Shown here: in pieces, positions 2,582 through 45,716 of the stretch
Layout: each line of letters begins with the position of its first letter
How positions within the stretch are numbered: the stretch's first letter is position 1
Origin: Acephala macrosclerotiorum
Taxonomy: Eukaryota; Ascomycota; Leotiomycetes; Helotiales; Mollisiaceae
DNA length: 64,000 bases
Direction: 5' to 3'
Assembly (NCBI GenBank): GCA_014904845.1
Contig: MU119370.1
Coordinates: 1-64,000, forward strand
Made by a program: the position numbers and the translations under genes
The notes under the pieces: generated by a model
Databases searched by the model: none
Told to the model about the DNA's origin: nothing
Seen by the model: the letters and a program-made list of their open reading frames with translations, nothing else

Positions 2582-2616
2582 GGCTTCTCCGGCTCCCCGG
2601 AGGGGCATAGTGAAGC
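2582..2616. repeat. Palindromic element, degenerate copy D (35 bp)
   Basis: The left arm GGCTTCTCCGGCTCC matches the left arm of copy C at 14 of 15 positions. The right arm GGGCATAGTGAAGC matches the common right arm at 11 of 14. The centre is 6 bp instead of 10. Near the tips the C-to-T change on the left (GCTTC) is matched by a G-to-A change on the right (GAAGC), so pairing is kept. On the coding (minus) strand the copy begins at the last base of the zinc-finger gene's TAG stop, so it lies in the 3' untranslated region. Confidence 0.65.
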
Positions 2617-4500
2617 TACGCAACTCTTCTCTTTGATCCAGGGGAACCAAAGTTGTATCTGCACTCTGTTTTTTCAATGTGCAGCTCTTTCGACCGAGAG
2701 CTACCCCAACTCTCACCACATTGATGGCAGACATATCCTTTCAACTGATTCTTCTGATGATCGTCGACGTTCAGGTGATGAAATCGATTAAGATGGTTGA
2801 GGTAATGCTTCACAACAGGGAAGGACTGCATGCATTGAGAGAAAGGACATTGATACGGTCTGAAGTCGATAGGAAGGTAATTGCCATTTTCGCGGAAGTA
2901 CTGATCGGCGAATCGATCGACACCGTTGACTACCGACTTCCAAACCCCATTAGGCATTGAGCGGTTATGCCCGGAGGGAGGGAGATGTGGTTCAGCATAG
3001 TCTTCAGACTCTGAAAGAAGTTCATTTGAAGCACGCTCCTTGGTATTGTCTGGGGATGGGCGGAAGGAAGAAGAAGCATCATCAGCAGCAGCATGCCGAC
3101 CTTTGCCGGCTCCGCCGGCTCCCCCCGAAGAGGGGCCTGGTGGAGCATGGTTCTTGTCGAAAAATTGGCCGAGATCGTTGAGATGGAACTCGGTGAGGTA
3201 GATGTTGACTTGCGACCGAATCTTGCCTGGGACGGTGCCTGATGACGGCTCGCATAGTGGAAAGTGAGAGCATTCAGGATCCTCGCCGGCAAGCAGCAGG
3301 AGCGTGCATCCATTCCGCTCACTATTGACGTTTGGAGATTCGGGTACGACGTGCGCAGGCGTGAGGCAGTGTACACCACATGTATGCGATCCCTCAGCAT
3401 GCTTTCTGAGAAATGCAAGGATGTTACTGCGGCCAGAGATCTTCCCTGTGGCAATCATCAGGAGACGGGAGAAAGCAGTGCGGTACGTATGTTGATGAGG
3501 GTGAGAGCTATCGCAGCAGTGCCATCTGAGCTCAACAGTGCAAGTCTGAACATTGACGCAACCTTGAGGATCATCGATTGTCTTGTTCTGCATGATCACG
3601 GCAATCTGCGAGAGAAGCTGCTGTGCGAGAGGGGTACAGAGTGCGTCAGCCAGACATTCGGAATAAGGGCAATCGTTGACTCGAGGATTGATGCCTAGTT
3701 GCGAGATATCTTGACCTGGCAAAGATGTGGAGTTGAAGAGGTCGAGAATTGTGTCTGAATTTTCGAACCAGGAGTCCTCACAGAACCACGGCGCCGTAGA
3801 CGAGGTTGGGCCAGGTGGCGTTGTGGCGAACCCCGAAGACGAGGCTCCGCCGGCTCCTACAATTGTAGGGCCTGGTGGAGCTGGGCTGAACATCGAGGAG
3901 CTTCCAGATGAAGTATGGGGAGGTCTTGAGGGGAAGCCCGAAGTATTTTGCATGTATCGGGAAGGAATATACAGCCCACCCGAAGGAACGGCGGATGATC
4001 TAGTTGAAGAATCTTGCTACAAAGTTGTCAGAGGCGAAGTCTACAAGAGGAGGAGATGTGGGATTAACTGACCGTAGAGTACCACGCAGCCGCAAATGTA
4101 TTGTAGAGGAAGCGGGTGGCTTGGCAAATATCAGGGATTTTGGCGGCTTCTTCCTCGAGTGCAACAAGTGGTGCCCCATCGAAGCAATGGTTCAAAGCCT
4201 TAGAGAAATGGCTGTATACCCACATGGCGAAGAGTCCTCCAACCCTATTATGCATGTTGCCAGCCGTGAATTGTTGTAGGACTTTCAACAAGACGACGTT
4301 GAAGTCTTCGAACGGAGCATGATCTGAAGACGGCGAGGTAGAGGAGGAGGAAGGCGCGGAGTCTTCAAGGGTCGCAGTAGACTGGGTTCGAGAACGAGAG
4401 AGTCCCGCATTACTTCCTAGAACCACAAGTTAGCTGATGTCTGGGAACTCGGAACGTAGACTGATAGTTTACCAGAGAGATTGACAGACGGCGGAGGCAT
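2616..4500 (-). CDS. C2H2 zinc-finger protein carrying two in-frame palindromic elements
   Basis: I join three exons: 4500-4473, 4416-4073 and 4016-2616, with 56-bp introns at 4417-4472 and 4017-4072 (branch-like CTAAC and CTGAC before the acceptors). This gives 590 aa in one frame. The C-terminal 80 residues hold C2H2-type finger patterns (CPFSQC...H..H and CHQCGESW...H), so a nucleic-acid-binding or regulatory nuclear role is likely. Earlier parts have Cys/His-rich stretches (residues about 200-330) that I cannot assign. Residues 170-182 and 415-427 are the 13-residue products of the 39-bp palindromes: APPGPTIVGAGGA and APPGPSSGGAGGA. A related half copy (PPGPTS) follows the first. The tail ends in a basic GSKRRVA. 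The target is unknown. The second intron border was chosen because it alone keeps the frame open. Confidence 0.75.
3108..3146. repeat. Palindromic element, copy A (39 bp, in-frame in zinc-finger gene)
   Basis: Plus strand: left arm GGCTCCGCCGGCTCC, 10-bp centre CCCCGAAGAG, right arm GGGCCTGGTGGAGC. The arms can pair and the centre extends the stem (CCCC with GGGG around a CGAAGA loop). On the coding minus strand it is exactly 13 codons, APPGPSSGGAGGA, at residues 415-427 of the zinc-finger protein. Confidence 0.85.
3801..3821. repeat. Possible half copy of the palindromic element
   Basis: The coding-strand segment resembles the first 21 bases of copy C (about 16 of 21 identical) and encodes TPPGPTS. 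It lies 21 bp from copy B. Only one arm and part of the centre are present. Chance similarity through Pro/Gly-rich coding is possible. Confidence 0.35.
3843..3881. repeat. Palindromic element, copy B (39 bp, in-frame in zinc-finger gene)
   Basis: Left arm GGCTCCGCCGGCTCC and right arm GGGCCTGGTGGAGC are identical to copy A, but the 10-bp centre is TACAATTGTA, itself a perfect palindrome. On the minus strand it reads as 13 codons, APPGPTIVGAGGA, residues 170-182 of the zinc-finger protein. Confidence 0.85.
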
Positions 4501-4583
4501 GGCAGACGAAGAGGAACCAGAAACAGGGTGCTTGGACGTGGGAGCTTTGACGATATGTCAGCTGCGTCCACAGCGAAGGCTAG

Positions 4584-5057
4584 CTAGAAAGGATTGGACC
4601 GCTCACTTCTTGGAACGCCACGCAGACCGGCTCCTCCGGCTCCTAGCGAAGTAGGGCCTGGTGGAGCAAAAGGTGCAGCATCTGGGGAGAGCTTGGCCTT
4701 CTTCTTCGGTTTGTCGACTGGAGAATCGCTGTGCAGGAAGTTAGCCTAACGTGGTTCAACCCTCAGAATGCTGATGAGTACTGCAGTGGATAGAGCTAAG
4801 ATGAGTCACCAACCTCGACGCGTCGAGATCAGTGCTACTTGAGCTCCATCCACGCCAGCGACAAGCCAGTAGGAAGCAGGCATCGCGAAGATGGGCATAT
4901 CAGGAGTCGCAAGAAGAGATTAAGGTCAGGAAACTTACGGTGATGGCCGCTTGCCGTTCCTGTTGACGACTCGCGGTGTATTGAAGAAGGCAGCGTACAA
5001 GCCGTAGGCGCTGCCGAGAGAGGTGATAGATAGAACAACCCACAGAAAGGACTCCAT
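4584..5057 (-). CDS. Small membrane-anchored protein with an in-frame palindromic element
   Basis: Two exons, 5057-4939 and 4728-4584, are joined across a 210-bp intron (GTAAG donor, GCTAAC branch site close to a CACAG acceptor), giving 87 aa. The start MESFLWVVLSITSLGSAYGL is a hydrophobic segment, a signal anchor or single transmembrane helix. It is followed by a basic stretch (KPKKKAKL) and then APPGPTSLGAGGA at residues 61-73, the translated palindromic element (copy C). The end is RSERSNPF and a TAG stop. I do not recognise the family. The gene lies 83 bp upstream of the zinc-finger gene on the same strand, yet the two proteins share nothing except the 13-residue module. The intron is longer than its neighbours, so another internal exon cannot be excluded. 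Confidence 0.65.
4629..4667. repeat. Palindromic element, copy C (39 bp, in-frame in small membrane-protein gene)
   Basis: Left arm GGCTCCTCCGGCTCC differs at one base from copies A and B, the centre is TAGCGAAGTA, and the right arm GGGCCTGGTGGAGC is identical. The coding strand gives 13 codons, APPGPTSLGAGGA, in the same phase as in the neighbouring gene. Confidence 0.85.
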
Positions 5058-7349: not shown

Positions 7350-8368
7350 ATGCCCAAGTCCAATCGTCGCGTACGTCCTTCCTGGGCCTTTGACTATTCT
7401 GCTTCTATATACTCACCTTCGAACATAGCCTCGTCGCCTTACCGAACCCAGTGCCAAGCAGAAGGCTGCCGGCGTGCGTTCCATCTACCAGACATTTGTT
7501 TATGCGAGGCTAACAATTCCAGGTCTCCTCCATCTCTCGTACGACCAAACCTGCCAAGTCCAACGCATGTTTCACCCTTCCTCTATGTTGTACCTCAACT
7601 AACACTATTCAGAAAGGTGGCAGAAGATCCGTTGGTGTTGCGCGTCACAATCTCACGGGCGCCGAGCGCCGTCGTCGCAGGAAAGAAAAGGAAGCCCAAG
7701 CTGCTAGTACACAAGATCATGATAATGATGATGAGGATGAAGACGATGATGCGGAGATGGACCTCGCTCTTCCAAGCCCAGCACCAGCTGGGGCTAGTCG
7801 AGCCAATGCCTTTCCAGTTCTCACAAAAGAGGACGGTCCCGAGATGGATGGAGAGTATACCTCGCCATTTCCTGATGTTACAATTCCACGTATAGGCTAA
7901 CACATTTAGGGCTACTTGCCAAGGTCCTTGCGGTTTGAAGTATCGTCGAGGTGGTCGTGATGCGCATGGTGTGGATGGCAAGTACGGAAAAGTCGGTCAA
8001 AATCCCAGATACTTCTCCAAAGCTTCGCTTGATCATGGTGGCAAGGGAGTAAGTTCTCCCTATCATCCTTCCTCTTTTGTTAGTGCTGATATCATCGAAG
8101 TTCTGCAAGAGCTGCGAATTCTGGGTGGCTTCAGGCATGAATGGTCCGTGTCCAAACGCAGGTCATCTCACCAAGGCACAGATGGATGCATGGGTTGATG
8201 CTTTGAAGCGAGTAAGTTCCTCTCTCATGAAATTCTTTGATGCATAGCATCGCTAACAAGCCGTAGGGTCTATGGTCGGTGCCAGAGGAGGACCTAGGCG
8301 TGGCGAGCGACATGGCATATCTTTCGGATCCAGAGAACGGGTACTACTCGAATGATGATGACAACTAG
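7350..8368 (+). CDS. Hypothetical basic protein with a C-terminal cysteine motif (7 exons)
   Basis: Seven exons are joined in frame: 7350-7370, 7429-7473, 7523-7564, 7613-7854, 7910-8048, 8101-8211 and 8267-8368, giving 233 aa. The third intron (7565-7612) must use a GC donor to keep the frame; the others are GT-AG with good branch sites. The N-terminus is very basic (MPKSNRR, GAERRRRRKEKE) and is followed by an acidic run (DNDDEDEDDDAE). The second half holds paired cysteines, CQGPC near residue 118 and FCKSCEFW...GPCPNAGH near residue 163-185, which could bind a metal. Basic plus acidic low-complexity segments suggest a nuclear or nucleolar protein. The family is not recognised. A pyrimidine-rich promoter stretch lies at about 7000-7340. 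Confidence 0.7.
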
Positions 8369-8742
8369 GCAGGATCAGCTTGCTTGACTCGACCCCCGCC
8401 AGGGGCGTCTGGACAAGCCACTGCTGCGTCTTGGCCATACCATGTCTTCGGGTTGTCTCGTGTTTTGCTTCCAGCTCGGTGCTTGCGTGTTCTTCGGTTT
8501 GCGGTTCTGGTAATGGCCGACATGCTTCTCAGATTCCCTAAGTAGCTTTGCGATAATCGCATCAGTAATGAACTACTACACACAGCCATATGCGCTATCG
8601 TGAAATGTCAAAGTGAATAATTGCAAGTTGCAGCTGTGAGGCATTACAGAAGGTAAAGTACATAGAGATCAATAGATTGCAACAAGATCAGGTACTGGCG
8701 CTGTCCGAGAAAGGCGACGTTCATAATCTCCTGGATTTTGAA

Positions 8743-9048: not shown

Positions 9049-9900
9049 AAGAAACCCCGAAGAGAAAATCAAGGACCATCTGGAACCCAAGGATGAATTT
9101 GCCGCTTTCTTTTGGTTCTTCTACGAGAAATTCTTTGCGTGGAGTTTTCTTAGTAAAGCAGCAAGTTCTAGTTGTTTTTTGTCTTCTGGGACATCAACAA
9201 CATCAAAAGTTATTTGTTTCCCGTTTTCTACCTTCGACTAGAGTTCCTCGAGTTGCTTCCGGGCTGGTTCTACCTCCCCTTCCTCTTTCTTTCACGATCG
9301 AGATCAGAAGCGCTCACACGTACTTGAATTTCTTTTCCCATTGCTCTGAGTTAACAATGGCGAAGCTTTGCTTTGTGGTTGTCATTCTCGTTCTTTGATG
9401 CATTCATTTACGAATGAAGATTCCAGAGAGCACATCCACCTGAACCTGGCACCTGCTCCTCGAGAACAATTAGCTAGTGCCAGCGGCAACTAGAATATAA
9501 AAAGATTCGTAATATCTTAGTTTGATTATCACACTGGATCTAGATTGTTAGGATCCTTGGAATCGGGGTAGCTTATTATCTAAATATATTCTCTAGAAAG
9601 CGAGAATGCCTGGTGGCGTCTCGTTGATGTTCCCATGCAAATGGGGCTTTTAGTGCGATCGAAATATTGAAATAAGCAGTCAATGATGGCCTTGGCAATA
9701 CTCGATGTTTGATATCATCTTTTAAAGAGGTGGTCCATACTAATCTGGGTATCCTGTTTCGAAGTTGCAGCTATTTATAGATTGAGGACAGAGCTCGACA
9801 ATCGTTGAAAATGTGCTAGTATCGCCGGGGGTTCCTTCAATCTTGAAGTATATCTCCTACCCCAAGCCTTTTCAATATTAAGAAGAAGCTCATCCTATTC
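9049..9900. other. Intergenic, nothing recognised
   Basis: No protein family, RNA gene or repeat is visible. The last 500 bases before 9901 are moderately AT-rich and form the downstream region of the ankyrin NLR on the minus strand. Confidence 0.5.
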
Positions 9901-12900
9901 CTAACTAGGCTCGTCAACTTTCGCTCCTCGTGAAAGAAGAAGTTCTGCAATTTGTAATTCATCTTCTGCCACAGCTGCCTGCAATGCGTTTCCAAAATAT
10001 CCTCCCTTGGCATTTATCTCAGCACCGTGATTTAAGAGAAGCTGGACAATGGCCTTCTCTCCTTTCTCAGCTGCTGCTAGGAGCGCGTTTTTATACTCTC
10101 CACCTTGTGCATTAATATCAGCACCGTGATCTAGAAGAAGCTGGACAATGGCTTTCTCTCCTGTCAAGACTGCTTCTTGGAGCGCATTTCCATACTTCCC
10201 ACCTTGTGCGTTGATATCAGCACCGTGATCTAGGAGAAGCTGGACAATGGCCTTCTCTTTTGTCAAGGCTGCTGCTTGGAGTGCGTTTCCATATACTCCA
10301 CCTTGTGCATTGATATCAGCACCGTGGTCTAAGAGAAGCTGGACAATGGCCTTCTCTTCTGTCAAGACTGCTGCTTGGAGTGCGTTTCCAAACTCTCCAC
10401 CTTGTGCGTTAATATCAGCACCGTGATCTAAAAGAAGCTGGACAATAGCTTTCTCTCCTATCGTAGCTGCTGCTTGGAGCGCATTTCCATACTCTCCACC
10501 TTGTGCATTGATATTAGCACTGTGATCTAGGAGAAGCCGGACAATACCTTGCCATTCTCTATATGCTGCTGCTTGGAGTGCGTTTCCATACACACCACCT
10601 TGTGCATTGACATCAACACCGTGAGCCAGAAGCAGTCTAACTATGTCTTCATGTCCATTATATGCTGCGGTTTGTAGAGCAGTTTTGTAAAGTGCACTGG
10701 GGGATATTTTGTTTACGGCGGCTCCATCACGGATAAGGAGCGATAAAAGTTGGGTTAAGCCACGGGATGCAGTGTAATACAGCGGTGTTGGAAGTGATTC
10801 GGGTGTTGTTTTAAAGCTAGTCCAATTCCTATCAGGCGCATTGATTCGAACCATGTTGAGCAGACTTTGAGAAGTAGTTGACAGTGCTTGCATAGCTTGA
10901 CTTGTGACAGAAGGCGCCCAAGATTCTTGAACAATTCTTTCCAAATGGAATGTCCATTTCCATGCCGCATATTCCCAAAGGGCATATCGCTCGAGTGTGT
11001 CTTTAGTCGCTAGAATACTCTTACTTAGATGTAAGTGATACGTGACACAAGATTCTGCTATATGCGTATGAGAAGTCTGCTCTGCTGTAGAGAACTCTTC
11101 CAGGGCTATTCGAGAGGAGCATAAGTATTCCTTAATGGAGAAGTGAACAAATCTTATCTGTACAACATCCTTGTCCCACCGGGAAGGATAGTCGTTGCTG
11201 TATTTTGCGATATGGATTGGGACTTTGACAACAAGCCCAGAAAGATAGTTGAGAACTTCTTCGGGAGAAAAGAGCCGCTTATCTTCATCAAAAGGTATGC
11301 TTCCTCCGGGGTCGAGAATGAAAGCTTCCGCAAGCTCTTCAAGAAGAAGAGGTCGAAGCGAGAATGCAAGCCATTTCAAAACACCTGCAACTTGTTTCTC
11401 ATATCCAATAGGTATGCTTTTCAGGATTCTGTTATACGTGGCATCGAGCCCCTTGGGAAGGTCACGCAGTGCCTTCTGGATGCTGGCTTTGGATCGATGG
11501 TCTCGGAGAACGTCGAATTGGCAGGCCACATATTGAAACCTAGGATTGTTCAATACCGGAACAGACATTTAAAACCTCGATAAGGGGAGAAATTTTACGG
11601 AATGGGGTACCCACATTCCATCAGAATTCTCGATCAATGCAGACCTAGCTTCCTCCTTCACTTCCTTCGGCCAGGAGCGGAAAGGTTCGGTATTGAACTT
11701 TTTGTCAATGTGCAACCCAATATCAGCTTCCACGGCCTTGCTCAAGGCCGATAGATTGATATCTAGTCTCGAAGATTCTGCAGTGCTAAAGGATATAAGG
11801 GGCTTGAGGGCCGTTTCGATGTCGGTCTCTCTTCGACTTGTCACCAGAAGATGGAGGTTGTCTGAACCTTTTTCGACAATCCGGTTAATGGTTTCCAGTA
11901 ATGTCTCTCGCGAACCACTTCCGACAGGGCATTCGTCAAGAGCATCCAAGACCAAGTGAACATGTGAGAATCCGCGTGTTGCCGCCAATAGTATGTTAAG
12001 AAGAGTCTTTTCATCAGGTCGCTGCCCCATCTTTTGGTATTGGCTTAATGATGCGACATAGGGGGGAGTATCTGGACGACGACAACATAGTTGTTTGATA
12101 ATGGAGCTCAACATCTCGATCACATTCTGCTTTTTGCTGTCGGTAAAGCTGAAGTAGAAGAAGACCAAGGCCATTTCAGGATTTGAGTCGTAGGTTTCTC
12201 GTAAGTTTTCGATGATAGATGCACTATACTTTATCAATGACTCGAATTTTTAAGTTATTGGGAACAATATACCTTAATACGGACTTTCCTGATCCAGCTG
12301 CGGAGATTGCCAATATTAGAGACAGTATATATAATGGAAGCATCACGGGTGAAGAAACACACCTTTTCCATTCAGCCACAAAACAGAGTTGGGTCCAGTC
12401 TTCCAAGCTTCAAAGTCATCGTTCCCTCGAAGTAGCCATTCTCCTGTGCCAGCTTGGCGTGCATGCAGCGCAGTATTGTAGTTCTCTGAGGGATCGGAGG
12501 ACGACAACCAGCTGAGGAGCTCTCTTCTTTCAGAATTCCTTTGAATGTCCTCAACGGCTTTCTGCAGAGCTACAACATTGCAAGAAATGGTTCCCATAGC
12601 CTCGACCTTCTCGCGGTGTTGTTGAAAAACTTCCTCGCAAATCTCCTGCTCTCGGATATCTTTCCAGATTTCATACACCTGGCAGAACGCATTTTCTCGC
12701 TTCTGAATATCACTCAATGAAGAACCCCAGTCATTCCACTTGACGACATCTAACCCGAGCCGAAAAGCACCGTTCTTTGAGAGATAGCAAACGCTTTTCG
12801 CTTGAAACTTCAAAATTTGAACATAAAGGCATTTCAGGGTATCTTGGTACCCCTTGTGCGAAGACAAGGCAATCTCTTGCTCCTTATCCATGCCTTTGTA

Positions 12901-40860: not shown

Positions 40861-42067
40861 GCGTCCATATGAGCGCGCTGTAATGGGCTGGCTTCACTAT
40901 CTGCTGCGACGTTGAACTTTATGTCGTTGATATCGTGGTAGAGAGGTATAAAATCTCCAGTGAGAAGGATTCCGGAGGCGGAAAGGGCGTCATGGTAATT
41001 TTCAATTTTAACCACTTTCCGGAACTGTTCTTGTTGTGGAAGAAATCGTATCCTTTAACTAGCCCAGAGAACTCAGAGAATCAGTCCGATCATGATGAAA
41101 AACTTCTCAGATGCAAGCGACACCTCCGCGGGTGGGGAGGGGGCCGCGTTTCGAGGGGCAGCGCTGTATGAATTTAGAAACTACGGCATTGGAAAGCTGA
41201 GAGGTATCATAATTCAAAGAAGTTTCCATTAGGGGTAGGGGCGGTTTTCTTCTTCTTGGATCTTAAGAAGTTACTCGCGGTATGCCGATACTAAGCTCAT
41301 AGCAGACTCTCGCCCAAGTTTGAGGCTGGTTTCTCCCTTACACTGCGACGCGGTACGGAGGTACGCGCCTAGGCAACCAGGCAGCTTTTGCCAAGCGAGC
41401 CACTTGGACTGCTATCTGCATAGTGCTGTGTGAGGTGTATCGCAGTTTACGGAGGTACAGCCCCAGCCCATAAGTATTAGACCATGCTAACTTTAGTGTG
41501 CGCCACGGCGTCTTACCCTTAACCTCCGTAAGTAAGGGATGCGTATGGTTCCCACACTCTGACGCCCCTTCTCCACCGGAGAAAAAGGTGGCCGGCTTTG
41601 GCACGCGAGAACACTAAAATCGAAAGTACTTAATACTTGGTAATATTGCAGATTTGTCGCATTTGCGCACTTGGACAAAATCGTCCACTTTTTTCTCCGG
41701 TGGGGAGCGCCCGTAAGGTTAACCCTGTCGGGAACCTGCACAGCCACTCCCATACCGGACCGGCGGAGCATTTCCAGCTGAACACATTGCTTGGCAGCCT
41801 CGTAAAGCCAATTGGACCGTCTAATGGCTATCTCAGCCCTGTAACCTACGTTGACCGCAATTGCACACAGGTGCTCAGCCTTGCCAGGTGGCCGTGCATG
41901 TTGCTGCTGATGATGACAAAGAGCCCTCCATAAGAGACGCTCATGACCTATATATCATATTAGAGTCGCTTGGAACCATTGTTGCAACTCTTTGGAGACA
42001 TCCTCGAGCTTCGCTAGCCTCTATTCGCTGGATTGTGCTCACAGCCCGGTGGCTATTCTTCAGCAGC
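40861..42067. other. Intergenic with inverted repeat, upstream of the third NLR
   Basis: No protein family is visible. The sequence acggaggtac occurs twice, at about 41354 and 41450, and an inverted repeat lies at 41562-41711. The open frame leading into the NLR gene has no upstream ATG. The left part is flanked by the AAA remnant and a GC-rich region of uncertain origin. Confidence 0.45.
41562..41711. repeat. Imperfect inverted repeat, possible small transposon remnant
   Basis: The left arm 41562-41591 (core CTCCACCGGAGAAAAA) is matched in reverse by 41685-41711 (core TTTTTTCTCCGGTGGGGAG), with about 93 bp between them. The arms are about 27-30 bp with a few mismatches. It could be a MITE or a long RNA hairpin. 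No target-site duplication is evident. Confidence 0.5.
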
Positions 42068-45000
42068 ATGTCAGCACCCCCAATTCGTACACGCGATAAA
42101 TGGCGGCGGAGGTTGAAAATTGGCGGTTCTGGTTCTCCAAATCACTCGCAGACTTCCGATAGTGGATCTACCAGCTCTCCTCCACCAGCTCAATCTCGAA
42201 CGTTTATGCCCTATTCCACAACCCGAGCGTCCTCCTCGCGAGCAACTCTTACCCCTGATCTCTGGTCCGATGCCTTGCAAACACTCTCAGAAAGTGACCA
42301 GAGGGTAATTCGGACGATGCAAGACACAATAAGCGATGTTCAGCCCTTGTCGAAGACGATGGACGAGCTGGTGAAGGTGACAAAGGCAAAGCAAGATGAA
42401 TGTAGGAAGAAGTCCTACAAGTTTCGCTTTCGAGGGAAAGATATAATTCTCGGAGATGTTGCAGAGAAGATAGTAATCTGGCTGCATAAGTTCAAAGACA
42501 TTGGGGATATTGCAGTGAACTTTGACCCGGTTCACGCTAGCTTGCCGTGGGCAGGCGTCAGATTCCTACTGCAGGTATGTTTGAACCTGTCCTAGAACCG
42601 AACTGCTCCTAAAAGTCATCAAAGGCAGCCGTAGTAGGATATGATCAAATGGGATCCGTGCTCATCAGCATCGAAAGAATTGCCTACCTGACCAACCGGT
42701 GTAGGATCTACGAGGGTCTCTATACTTCCGACAACACACCAAAGGAAATACTGAACAGTTTTCATGAAGCGTTAGTAGCACTATATACTGTTATTTTGCA
42801 GCTAATGGCCCTCGTCTATCGTTTGCTTGACAAGACTACTATAATGCGAAATATGCACGCCCTTGTTAGTCCTGACCAGGTATCCGCTCTTGTAGAAAAA
42901 TGTCGCGACATGGAAACTCGGGTCGACATTGAGGCTCAAAACTGCCATCGTAAGCTCACCCAAGAAGCGGATATTAAAACTTACGAGCTGCTCGAGAGCT
43001 TGAGTAAGCCAATTCTTCGCACCGACGCAAATGTCTGTTCTCTTCTGGAAGCGACGGGCTACACAGAACGCCTGAGAATCTTGAATTGGATCTCAGAGCT
43101 CCTATACACAAAACATCATAAGACTGTCAGCGACCAGCGGACAGAGGATACAGGTGAATGGCTACTGAGGCATGATCAATATAAGGAGTGGCAAGATGAA
43201 AGCTCCTCTGTGATTCTCTGGTTGCATGGAACTGGTAGGCTGCATCTGTTTGACTATAGAAACGAAGCTAATCAACTCTTGTAGCTGGAACTGGCAAGAC
43301 ATACCTCGCATCCCGGGTCATTGATGACATTCAATATGCTCTTGCAAATAACCCGAATCATGAAGGCCTGGCGTTTTTCTATTGCAATAGAAATGAGGCC
43401 GAGCGTCAAGAGCCGTTGTCGGTACTACGCAGTTTTGTTCGGCAATTGTCAACTACGAGCAACGACGACCATTCTATATCCACGCGTCTCAAGGAACGGT
43501 GTATCCAGGCCCAATTAAAAGCTTCTGAACTCACCATGAACGACTGTAAGGAGCTTGTTCTCGAGTTCCTAAACCTTTATCCGAAGACAACGCTTATTCT
43601 AGATGCCTTGGATGAATGTAAGAAGGAGAAACGAAGAGACCTTATCGAAATATTCGACTACTTTCTCGCTCATGCCTCAAGACCCGTTAAGATCTTCATT
43701 TCAAGTCGACCTGATGGAGACATTCGGGAAAGATTTAAGAACCTGGCTAATATAGAGATTCAAGCCACAGACAATCATGGCGACATCTCCAGATTTGTAG
43801 AGACTGAGATCATGAAACACAGAAGGTGGAAGAATATGTCTCCCGAGCTTCAGGGGGAGATTATCGAGACATTACAAGTCCGCAGCCAGGGAATGTAAGT
43901 GAAACATCTTGCAATTTAATTTTCTCTAACCAAAATCCAGGTTCCAATGGGCATACTTGCAGATCGTGCAGCTCTTGGAGTTGAGTCAAGTCAAAGATAT
44001 TCGGAAGCGCCTAGGGAAGCTTCCAAATGGCCTCAAGGCCACGTATGATGAAATCCGCAAATCGATGATTGAAAGCGAAAAGCGAATCGCGGATCGAGCT
44101 TTTCAGTGGGTTATGTGCTCTATTGCGCCGCTTTCCACAGAGGAACTGCTCCAGGCGGTTTCCCAAGACGAAGGGGATGATGAAGTGAAACTTGTGGAGG
44201 ACCTTGATGAGGATCTTCTTCTCGAATATTGTCACAATCTTTTGGTCATTGATCGTGAGCGGAATGTCTGGGTACCCTCGCATCTCTCCGTAATCGAATA
44301 CTTCGAGAATCATTTCTGGGATCACAAGCAAGCAAACTATCTTGTTGCAACTGTGTGCATTTTAACGCTCATGGATCCTACCGCTGGCATCATGGAAGAA
44401 GATTCAGAACAAGCTTCGGAAAATGCTTCGGAAAGTGCTTCGAAGGCTGAGAGTGTGCCAAATGATTCATTTGACAGGCGGGACCTTCATCGCCTAAAGC
44501 TTTATGCAGAACACCACTGGATGAACCATGTCCGAATATGTCAAGATGATAGTGACCCTCGACTTTCAGCTCTTGTCAAAAAGTTCCTTGGTTCCCCTAC
44601 ATCCAGCAGTACTGCATACCGGAATTGGTATAATTCAGTGGAGAGGGTAGGTTGGCGCAAGCCACAATCTTCATTTTTTGAATCCTCAAGAATTGATCTC
44701 GATTATCTTGAACCAGATTCTTCAGCTGCTCCTGCGATTTGTGCTTTCGGGTTGTATGCGTGTCTATCAGACTGGTGGGAAAGTCCTTGGACGGGACTTG
44801 AATATAAATCAAAGATTGGCAGATCATTGTTACAACTTGCGGCGATGGCAGACTCACTTCCAATTTGCAAACGATTGATTGTTTTGGGAGTTGATTTAAA
44901 TGAGCAACTAGAGGGTGGGGGGTTTGAGTATGGCAGTGCGCTGGCAGCGGCAGCAGAGGGAGGCAATAAAGAAATAGTAAAGCTGCTAATTGAGTCTGGG

Positions 45001-45716
45001 GCAGAGGTTAATATGCAATTGCAAACTGGGAAGTATGGTAGTGCGCTGGCAGCAGCGGCATGGGNNNNNNNNNNNNNNNNNNNNNNNNNNNNNNNNNNNN
45101 NNNNNNNNNNNNNNNNNNNNNNNNNNNNNNNNNNNNNNNAGGGGATAAAGAGATAGTAAAGCTGCTGATTGAGTTTGGGGCAGAAGCTAATATGCAATTG
45201 CAAGCTGGAGAATATGGCAGCGCGCTGGCAGCAGCGGCATGGGGAGGGGATAAAGAGATAGTAAAGCTGTTAATCGAGTCTGGGGCACAAGTTAATATGC
45301 AATTGCAAGCTGGAAAATATGGTAGTGCGCTAGCAGCAGCAGTAGTAGCGACATGGGGAGGGGATAAAGAGGTAGTAAAGCTGCTGATTGAGTTTGGGGC
45401 AGAGGTCAATATGCAATTGCAAGCTGGAGAATATGGTAGTGCGCTAGCAGCAGCAGCAGCGACATGGGGAAAGGAGAAAGAAATAGTTAAGCTGCTGATC
45501 GAGTCTGGCGCAGAGGTCAATATGCAATTGCAAGCTGGATATTATGGTAGTGCGCTGGCAGTAGCATCAAACCGAGGCAATAAAGAGATAGTAGAGCTGC
45601 TAATTGAGTCTGGGGCAGAGATCAATATGCAATTGCAAGCTGGACCCTTTGCTAGCGCACTGGAAGCAGCCGAGAATAGCATAAGACAGCTTTTGGTTGA
45701 ACATGGTGCTAAATAG
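42068..45716 (+). CDS. NLR-like protein: N-terminal NWD-like domain, NACHT NTPase, ankyrin repeats (with N gap)
   Basis: Exons 42068-42574, 42625-43234, 43285-43894 and 43941-45716. The first ATG (MSAPPIRTRDKWRRRLKIGG) was chosen; the upstream open frame has only a TTG. Residues 60-330 are the N-terminal STAND domain (YKFRFRGKDIILGDVAEK, SLPWAGVRFLLQ, QMGSVLISIERIAYL). NACHT: Walker A AGTGKT at 373-378 and TLILDALDECKKE as Walker B, with GMFQWAYLQIVQLLELSQ at the last junction. The ankyrin array begins at about 44890 with near-identical units (KEIVKLLIESGAEVNMQLQ). A 75-N gap (45065-45139) interrupts it, and as drawn the frame changes across it. A true gap of length 1 modulo 3 would restore one open frame. 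Role: recognition of non-self and cell-death signalling, as for other fungal NLRs. Confidence 0.82.
44940..45660 (+). repeat. Near-identical ankyrin repeat array of the third NLR
   Basis: Repeats of about 105 bp encode units of the form KEIVKLLIESGAEVNMQLQ followed by AGxYGSALAAAA. Neighbouring units differ at only a few codons; an occasional insertion (AAAVVATWGGDKEV, AAAAATWGKEKEI) changes the Ala run. The array includes the N gap. Confidence 0.85.
45065..45139. other. Assembly gap (75 N)
   Basis: A run of N inside the ankyrin array. The flanks read ...GCATGGG and AGGGGATAAAG, which together rebuild one ordinary repeat boundary with one missing base, so the gap may hide zero or several whole units. 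Confidence 0.98.

Follow-up and report, generated by a model that had tools for sequence, protein, structure and literature searches.

In this study, we describe a palindromic unit of 39 bp in a 64,000-nt stretch of the genome of the fungus Acephala macrosclerotiorum (assembly GCA_014904845.1, contig MU119370.1, positions 1 to 64,000 of the forward strand), hereafter called the window. At least four copies of the unit, c1 to c4, lie within 2.1 kb, and three of them lie in the same sense and reading phase inside two unrelated genes. We regard the cluster as an unusual local, in-phase palindromic repeat. A preliminary description of this DNA had taken the unit for a small non-autonomous element; this mobile reading is weakened by the present results, and the cluster looks more like a product of local copying than like a spreading mobile element. 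With a probability of about one half, we propose that a discrete, hairpin-prone unit with fixed ends was copied locally by templated synthesis and was tolerated in the host proteins as a bland linker.

All four copies are given on the minus strand. Copy c1 (3108-3146, 39 bp) is in frame in the gene of a nuclease-like protein, an open reading frame (ORF) of 445 amino acids (2619-3953, minus strand), where it encodes APPGPSSGGAGGA (residues 270-282) between the His-Cys-box domain and a C-terminal part with a weak C2H2-like match. Copy c2 (3843-3881, 39 bp) is in frame near the N terminus of the same protein and encodes APPGPTIVGAGGA (residues 25-37); the 12 bp in the middle of this copy form a perfect palindrome. 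Copy c3 (4629-4667, 39 bp) encodes APPGPTSLGAGGA in frame in the predicted exon 2 of a membrane-like protein of 87 amino acids. On the plus strand c1 to c3 have the form GGCTCC[G/T]CCGGCTCC-N10-GGGCCTGGTGGAGC, and their coding strand reads GCT CCA CCA GGC CCN ... GGA GCC GGM GGA GCC. Copy c4 (2582-2616, 35 bp) is decayed and stands in a phase other than that of c1 to c3; its first coding-strand base is also the third base of the TAG that stops the 445-aa ORF. It mismatches the arms at 5 of 29 positions, whereas the best arm match in 200 simulated sequences of the same dinucleotide make-up had at least seven mismatches. All four copies are beyond chance. The three full copies, with shared arms around a variable 10-bp centre, and the decayed copy at the stop codon of the first host gene stand as they had been described.

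The arms of c1 to c3 are nearly identical and the centres are not. Between the three pairs of copies, arm differences amount to 0/29, 1/29 and 1/29, against 8/10, 5/10 and 5/10 in the centres (Fisher p per pair 7e-7, 0.002 and 0.002). The first and last bases of the unit are common to c1 to c4 (4/4), while the flanking sequence is unrelated, and no target-site duplication was found, as in none of the copies does a base recur at both edges. Eight of the ten arm codons are identical across c1 to c3, whereas codon usage, as taken from 18 long ORFs in the window, predicts 0.78 (P ~5e-8). Thus, c1 to c3 are copies at the DNA level, because a convergent peptide would not yield this many identical codons. 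The host proteins have no Pfam match in common, and the earlier statement that they are unrelated, and that descent of a shared domain does not account for the unit, is borne out by this comparison. As also reported before, c1 to c3 all begin at a codon boundary with the same sense and phase on the minus strand. By chance this agreement would occur in 1 of 36 cases, were all six frames equally allowed; however, it is partly a filter, because some of the other frames of c2 and c3 hold stop codons. The encoded peptide, APPGP[TS]xxGAGGA as previously noted, is rich in Pro, Gly and Ala, and c1, c2 and c3 all have T or S as the first residue of the centre. If the opposite strand is read with a shift of one base, c1 and c2 give a similar kind of peptide (APPAPPEEGPGG and APPAPTIVGPGG), so that the palindrome yields a like linker in either orientation. 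A few residues past c2 in the nuclease-like protein, positions 3796-3835 encode TTPPGPTSSTAPW, which resembles half a unit (GGGCCAGGTGG on the plus strand); it is possibly a half copy or plain Pro-rich sequence.

The coding strand of c1 to c3 folds into one hairpin, in which five pairs are followed by a mismatch, two pairs, a bulged A, three pairs and an inner stem that has a bulged A on the 3' side and ends in a short loop. Good folds are obtained for either strand of the full copies, and by fold stability c1 to c3 rank within the top four of 20,554 sliding 39-nt positions (step 3). Copy c4 can be aligned on the common hairpin, and the alignment of the four contains a few compensatory changes. 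With all four copies aligned in this way, the unpaired positions 6, 9 and 27 are A in 4/4 copies and the loops are UUCG, AAUU, UUCG and, for c4, UCCG; the last rests on a manual gap placement, and MAFFT instead puts the gap of c4 in the loop. In the MAFFT alignment of the four copies, 95% of the cells pair, and 3 of 500 shuffles attained its covariation score. In c1 to c3 the stems are conserved and the changes gather at the hairpin tip; few as the sequences are, this also holds when c4 is included. Shuffling of the centres alone gave p values of 0.06, 0.005 and 0.12. The hairpin is real, yet its evidence is only partly independent of the peptide.

Most likely, the unit was copied a few times over steps of 0.5-0.8 kb by templated DNA synthesis during repair or replication. 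The route would be fold-back and template switching at the hairpin rather than a transposase acting genome-wide. Copies that survived in coding sequence would be those that fell into low-complexity, linker-like protein stretches in the frame that gives a bland, presumably neutral Pro/Gly/Ala peptide; the host segments may be disordered, and a single-sequence structure prediction of the nuclease-like protein (mean pLDDT 34) was too poor to judge disorder. The arms may be alike because the copies are fairly recent and because inverted arms can correct each other, while the hairpin tip would be free to change or be rewritten in blocks. In yeast, template switching between short inverted repeats in genes homogenizes the arms and inverts the spacers, according to the parts of that report considered here (PMC8604942).

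Several observations weigh against local copying of a hairpin unit. We infer the copying route, and any order of the copies, from the sequence, and no copying event was observed. Templated insertions should vary in their end points, yet c1 to c4 share both ends; the identical ends therefore speak to some degree for an element and against simple copying by repair, while the lack of distant copies argues the opposite. By eye, no centre resembles an inversion of another centre, which is the signature given in the same yeast report as far as it was available (PMC8604942). The best fold of c4 is near the common hairpin on the coding strand in one analysis but differs in another and on the plus strand. 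Moreover, the three pairs with a change on both sides, one of which (4-35) is located in c4, were reached by 83 of 500 shuffles and the four further pair types by 403 of 500; 9 of the 15 pairs are invariant, and the structure was drawn from the same four sequences on which it is judged. Finally, random synonymous codings of the c1 to c3 peptides fold on average at -20.1, -20.1 and -18.6 kcal/mol, and the p values for reaching the observed fold energies are 0.10, 0.15 and 0.31. The palindrome largely comes with the peptide, because Ala and Pro codons complement the following Gly and Ala codons at their first two positions. On account of the shuffle counts and the synonymous-coding test, covariation was downgraded as proof of a hairpin element. 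The palindrome that had been described is thus present, but it is weaker evidence than it looks.

Since synonymous codings fold nearly as well, there is room for a protein-level cause of the hairpin. A linker or motif APPGP[TS]xxGAGGA might have been duplicated inside a gene as well as from one neighbouring gene to another, and might have been retained for a function in the protein, with the palindrome as a by-product of the codons. The common sense and phase of 3/3 coding copies and the constant T or S at the first centre residue would fit such selection as well. We consider it unlikely, as the synonymous positions are conserved too, and as c4 keeps the arms, with one pair changed on both sides, although it begins inside a stop codon and out of phase with the other copies. 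Selection might also act on the transcript. The unit would then serve as a regulatory hairpin of two mRNAs, in which the unpaired A residues are constant and the loop is often UNCG, and would be bound by a protein or act on translation. The A at 6, 9 and 27 in all copies, the UUCG, UUCG and UCCG loops of three copies and the strong folds agree with a role of this kind. However, residence of three copies in coding sequence in one phase is needless for a regulator, both strands of the full copies fold well, the MAFFT placement of the c4 gap affects one of the three loops, and the window has no Rfam match at gathering thresholds (nor any tRNA). A regulatory hairpin is therefore quite improbable.

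The local nature of the repeat was assessed in the whole genome (69,661,192 bases, in which the window lies on contig C169), a search with the arms having been set as a test beforehand in the preliminary description, with the absence of other copies named as the outcome that would speak against its reading. The bipartite pattern, with up to three mismatches over 23 specified bases, occurs at three places in the 69.66 Mb, all of them c1 to c3 (control 0), and when the core is required exactly and its gap may be 2-20 bases, these are again the only places, in five overlapping matches (control 0). The exact left arm occurs at five places (control 1), and the two beyond c1 to c3 (on C95 and C494) have no right arm. 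A search for the right arm that allowed one mismatch gave 25 places (control 13); 22 of them are not copies, and none of these has an adjoining left arm by eye. A search for the other arm with up to one mismatch gave 33 places (control 51), six of them exact, including c1 to c4; three places came without their surrounding locus, and of these the one on C494 (L005) was inspected. A relaxed 17-base pattern matched 15 places (control 0), namely four exactly (c1, c2, c3 and a candidate fifth copy, c5), none with one mismatch and 11 with two; the exact match of c5 is circular, as the pattern was drawn with c5 in mind. The 11 places form on average 1.9 of the 6 free pairs, against 2.25 expected and 5-6 in c1 to c3, while the control of 0 speaks against pure chance for them. 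Genome-wide DNA similarity searches did not return c2 and c3 separately and were not counted on the question of further copies.

Local scans covered 281,496 bases of the genome, in stretches largely chosen for an arm match. A two-armed scan of these stretches found 36 places with up to 9 mismatches in 29 positions. Beyond c1 to c4 and a shifted view of c1, the best match had 6/29 mismatches, followed by 12 places with 7 or 8, c5 among them; the level of 6-8 mismatches is taken as noise for stretches selected by an arm. The best match itself (C374:25261, positions 1501-1540 of locus L032, gap 11) was rejected as probably due to chance, since the locus had been selected by this arm, which itself looks like a splice acceptor. 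At the sensitivity used, by which copies more diverged than the patterns allow would be missed, the six pattern searches found no dispersed family in the genome, and the exact bipartite pattern had 0 matches in a viral and 0 in a prokaryotic contig collection. As a base rate, pairs of 39-nt repeats with at least 29 matches and 120-3000 bases apart were counted in the 281,496 bases. Among the 64 pairs, 42 lie in two tandem protein-type arrays, 3 in the present cluster and 14 in low-complexity sequence (loci L059, L032 and L071), and 5 are two-copy cases (L043, L040, L067 and L009). Isolated local repeats with three copies are rare in this genome sample. In locus L043, near 118-119 kb of C169, identical 39-nt direct repeats at 4041 and 4884 lie 843 bp apart and are probably part of a longer two-copy duplication.

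This confinement and the lack of a target-site duplication leave the earlier mobile-element reading, in the sense of a dispersed family, without support. A narrower version would be a true selfish palindromic element, of the type of the rickettsial palindromic elements or the yeast mitochondrial GC clusters, that entered or arose here and has so far settled only at this locus or is dying out. Fixed ends, the palindrome and in-phase residence in unrelated genes are what such an element would show, and the differences gathered at the hairpin tip recall the yeast element GC42, for which 367 changes at 12 loop sites and 174 at 30 other sites are given (PMC4478555, in the part consulted). No second locus emerged from the six genome pattern searches, and we hold the existence of such an element here to be rather unlikely. 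The same low expectation applies to its mode of spread, in which it would move as a hairpin with trans-acting help and be tolerated in genes when in frame.

Candidate c5 bears on the same question, as it would extend the unit to the other strand and to a third gene, again in phase. It lies at 7766-7804 on the plus strand, is 39 bp long and is read in sense, in the phase of c1 to c3, in a likely acidic exon of a predicted plus-strand gene, encoding ALPSPAPAGASRA. A covariance model built from c1 to c4, with c5 outside the training set, scored it at 22.9 bits (E 0.013) over the 281,496 bases, where the best unrelated match reached 18 bits. The reverse strand of c2 scored 22.6 bits, so that a strong GC hairpin alone scores far. 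With 13 of 15 pairs and 8/29 arm mismatches taken together, c5 ranks first among 548,584 positions outside the cluster. However, arm matches with eight mismatches or fewer arose in 30 of 200 simulations and also occur elsewhere in the scanned stretches, and plain alignment did not raise c5 above background. That c5 is a fifth copy is therefore doubtful. A strong hairpin at 8382-8419, just past the stop codon of the predicted gene that carries c5, scored 15.9 bits and is weakly like c4; it was rejected as chance, as unrelated loci reach 15-18 bits.

The first host protein had been called a zinc-finger protein. This holds in so far as a C2H2 match is present in its C-terminal part, where all such matches are sub-threshold; the protein carries a His-Cys-box (I-PpoI-like, PF05551) nuclease domain. 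The domain (3219-3674, minus strand) scores 27.9 bits on its own (27.3 in another search) against a cut-off of 27, and the whole protein scores 23.9; by the domain score and the conserved positions given below, the 445-aa protein is predicted to belong to the His-Cys-box family. Another PF05551 protein on contig C40 (63698-63871, L035; open for 633 codons) scores 41.6 bits and matches I-PpoI structures with an E value of 0.0025. Both proteins have the motifs S-H-x-C-G, C-L-x-P-x-H, N-x-x-R-N-x-C and C-x-H-x-P-x-C. The shared His, Cys and Asn positions are presumably catalytic or zinc-binding in I-PpoI. Protein searches with the 445-aa ORF gave no other match in the genome and none in a plasmid collection, and a sequence search of the PDB gave zero matches up to E 10. 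In the His-Cys-box, eight conserved His and Cys residues make up two zinc-binding motifs, as stated in the sections of the source that were available (PMC9587614).

It is tempting to connect the palindromes with this predicted nuclease, as the cluster overlaps and surrounds one of the at least two PF05551 matches found in the genome. The units might be sites of the nuclease or by-products of its action; the enzyme itself or a relative would cut the palindrome, and break repair would copy the unit around the nuclease's own gene, in a fungal analogue of the pairing of REP palindromes with RAYT genes. The I-PpoI homodimer recognizes a 15-bp semi-palindromic site (PMC9587614), and prokaryotic REP palindromes of 20-40 bp often lie close to RAYT genes, which encode DNA-processing enzymes (PMC3733652), as far as the excerpts of both papers tell. 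However, RAYTs are HUH-type tyrosine transposases, and REPs are GTAG-tagged, high in copy number and prokaryotic (PMC3733652, same excerpt), whereas the present units accompany a His-Cys-box protein, have no tag that we could see and are not dispersed. Palindromes are present at the nuclease gene, but the association is not repeated at the C40 locus, where 10 kb (L035 and L039) were scanned and contain no copy. Moreover, the association concerns a single locus and was noticed after the fact, c3 lies outside the nuclease gene, and no activity is known for the predicted nuclease. A role of the enzyme is accordingly very improbable. Its broader form is equally a long shot, namely a nuclear eukaryotic palindrome-nuclease pairing in which a His-Cys-box nuclease recognizes 39-bp palindromes in its own gene and its neighbours, and break repair sows in-frame hairpins locally as harmless linkers. 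A nuclear His-Cys-box nuclease gene linked to inverted repeats has been described and is alike in gene type and in the adjacent inverted repeats (PMC9587614, judged from the part available); in contrast to that case, the present gene is a single copy, and the repeat search of the window listed no long direct repeats around it.

Palindromic units in known systems match the cluster in part. Rickettsia palindromic elements (RPEs) are likewise palindromic, inserted in frame in unrelated protein genes and associated with a recurring encoded peptide (PMC10969869, in the portion consulted). A palindromic unit in frame in unrelated genes holds here for three copies, the third by way of a predicted intron. 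However, RPEs are ~150 bp long and were first reported as ten families with 44 integrations in R. conorii (PMC10969869, same portion), whereas the present unit forms a single 39-bp family, whose four copies share one locus in a genome that is read as nuclear and fungal. The dispersal of RPEs through the genome is not encountered here, since c1 to c3 are the only places found in the 69.66 Mb and c4 belongs to the same locus. The yeast mitochondrial GC42 clusters (42 nt) and the repetitive hairpin-forming elements of sponges are also short GC-rich hairpins with conserved stems and variable loops, but they are mitochondrial, occur in many dispersed copies and, for GC42, use AG target nucleotides (PMC4478555; PMC2800124; both in the parts accessible). 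The unit described here resides in coding sequence at one locus and is without a target duplication. Quasi-palindrome template switching makes inverted arms in coding DNA alike and gives multi-base spacer changes; it alters an existing palindrome in place, whereas here the whole unit also appears at several sites (PMC8604942, as above). In Volvox, palindromes occur in all three genomes and the nuclear ones were judged inert (PMC2670323), and a mitochondrial palindrome case in Fusarium is of another type (PMC7218506), according to the passages of these papers that were available. No paper on a nuclear fungal counterpart was found among the matches listed from the open-licence literature.

The second host gene, predicted with two exons (4584-5057, minus strand), encodes the 87-aa protein with an N-terminal hydrophobic stretch and no Pfam match. 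This protein requires a predicted intron of 210 nt (4729-4938) with GTAAGT...CTAAC...CAG recognized by eye. The two hosts had been called adjacent; they are separated by a predicted small gene (~4064-4500, minus strand) with one intron, which encodes 126 amino acids, contains no copy and has no Pfam match. The 120-kb contig, the predicted introns and the adjoining AT-rich dispersed repeat point to nuclear rather than mitochondrial DNA. Positions 1-2341 form a very AT-rich stretch, like that left by repeat-induced point mutation (RIP), which ends ~240 bp from c4. The terminal 41-49 bp of this stretch (from 2300) are present at 27 further genomic places with 87-100% identity, and it behaves as the end of a dispersed repeat would. 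Tandem repeats of ~99-114 bp at 9872-10666 and 44859-45670 (bases 45065-45139 masked) are probably ankyrin-type protein repeats. At 41559-41717, two arms of 42 nt (76% complementary) form an inverted repeat that encloses 75 nt.

Since the unit is confined to one locus, a general mobile family is unlikely and its wider importance is modest. If the unit was indeed copied into two unrelated genes, it would be a natural case of a very short palindromic unit that adds the same peptide to nuclear-encoded proteins, an addition described for Rickettsia in the consulted part of that work (PMC10969869). Hairpin copying would then be one way in which protein linkers arise.

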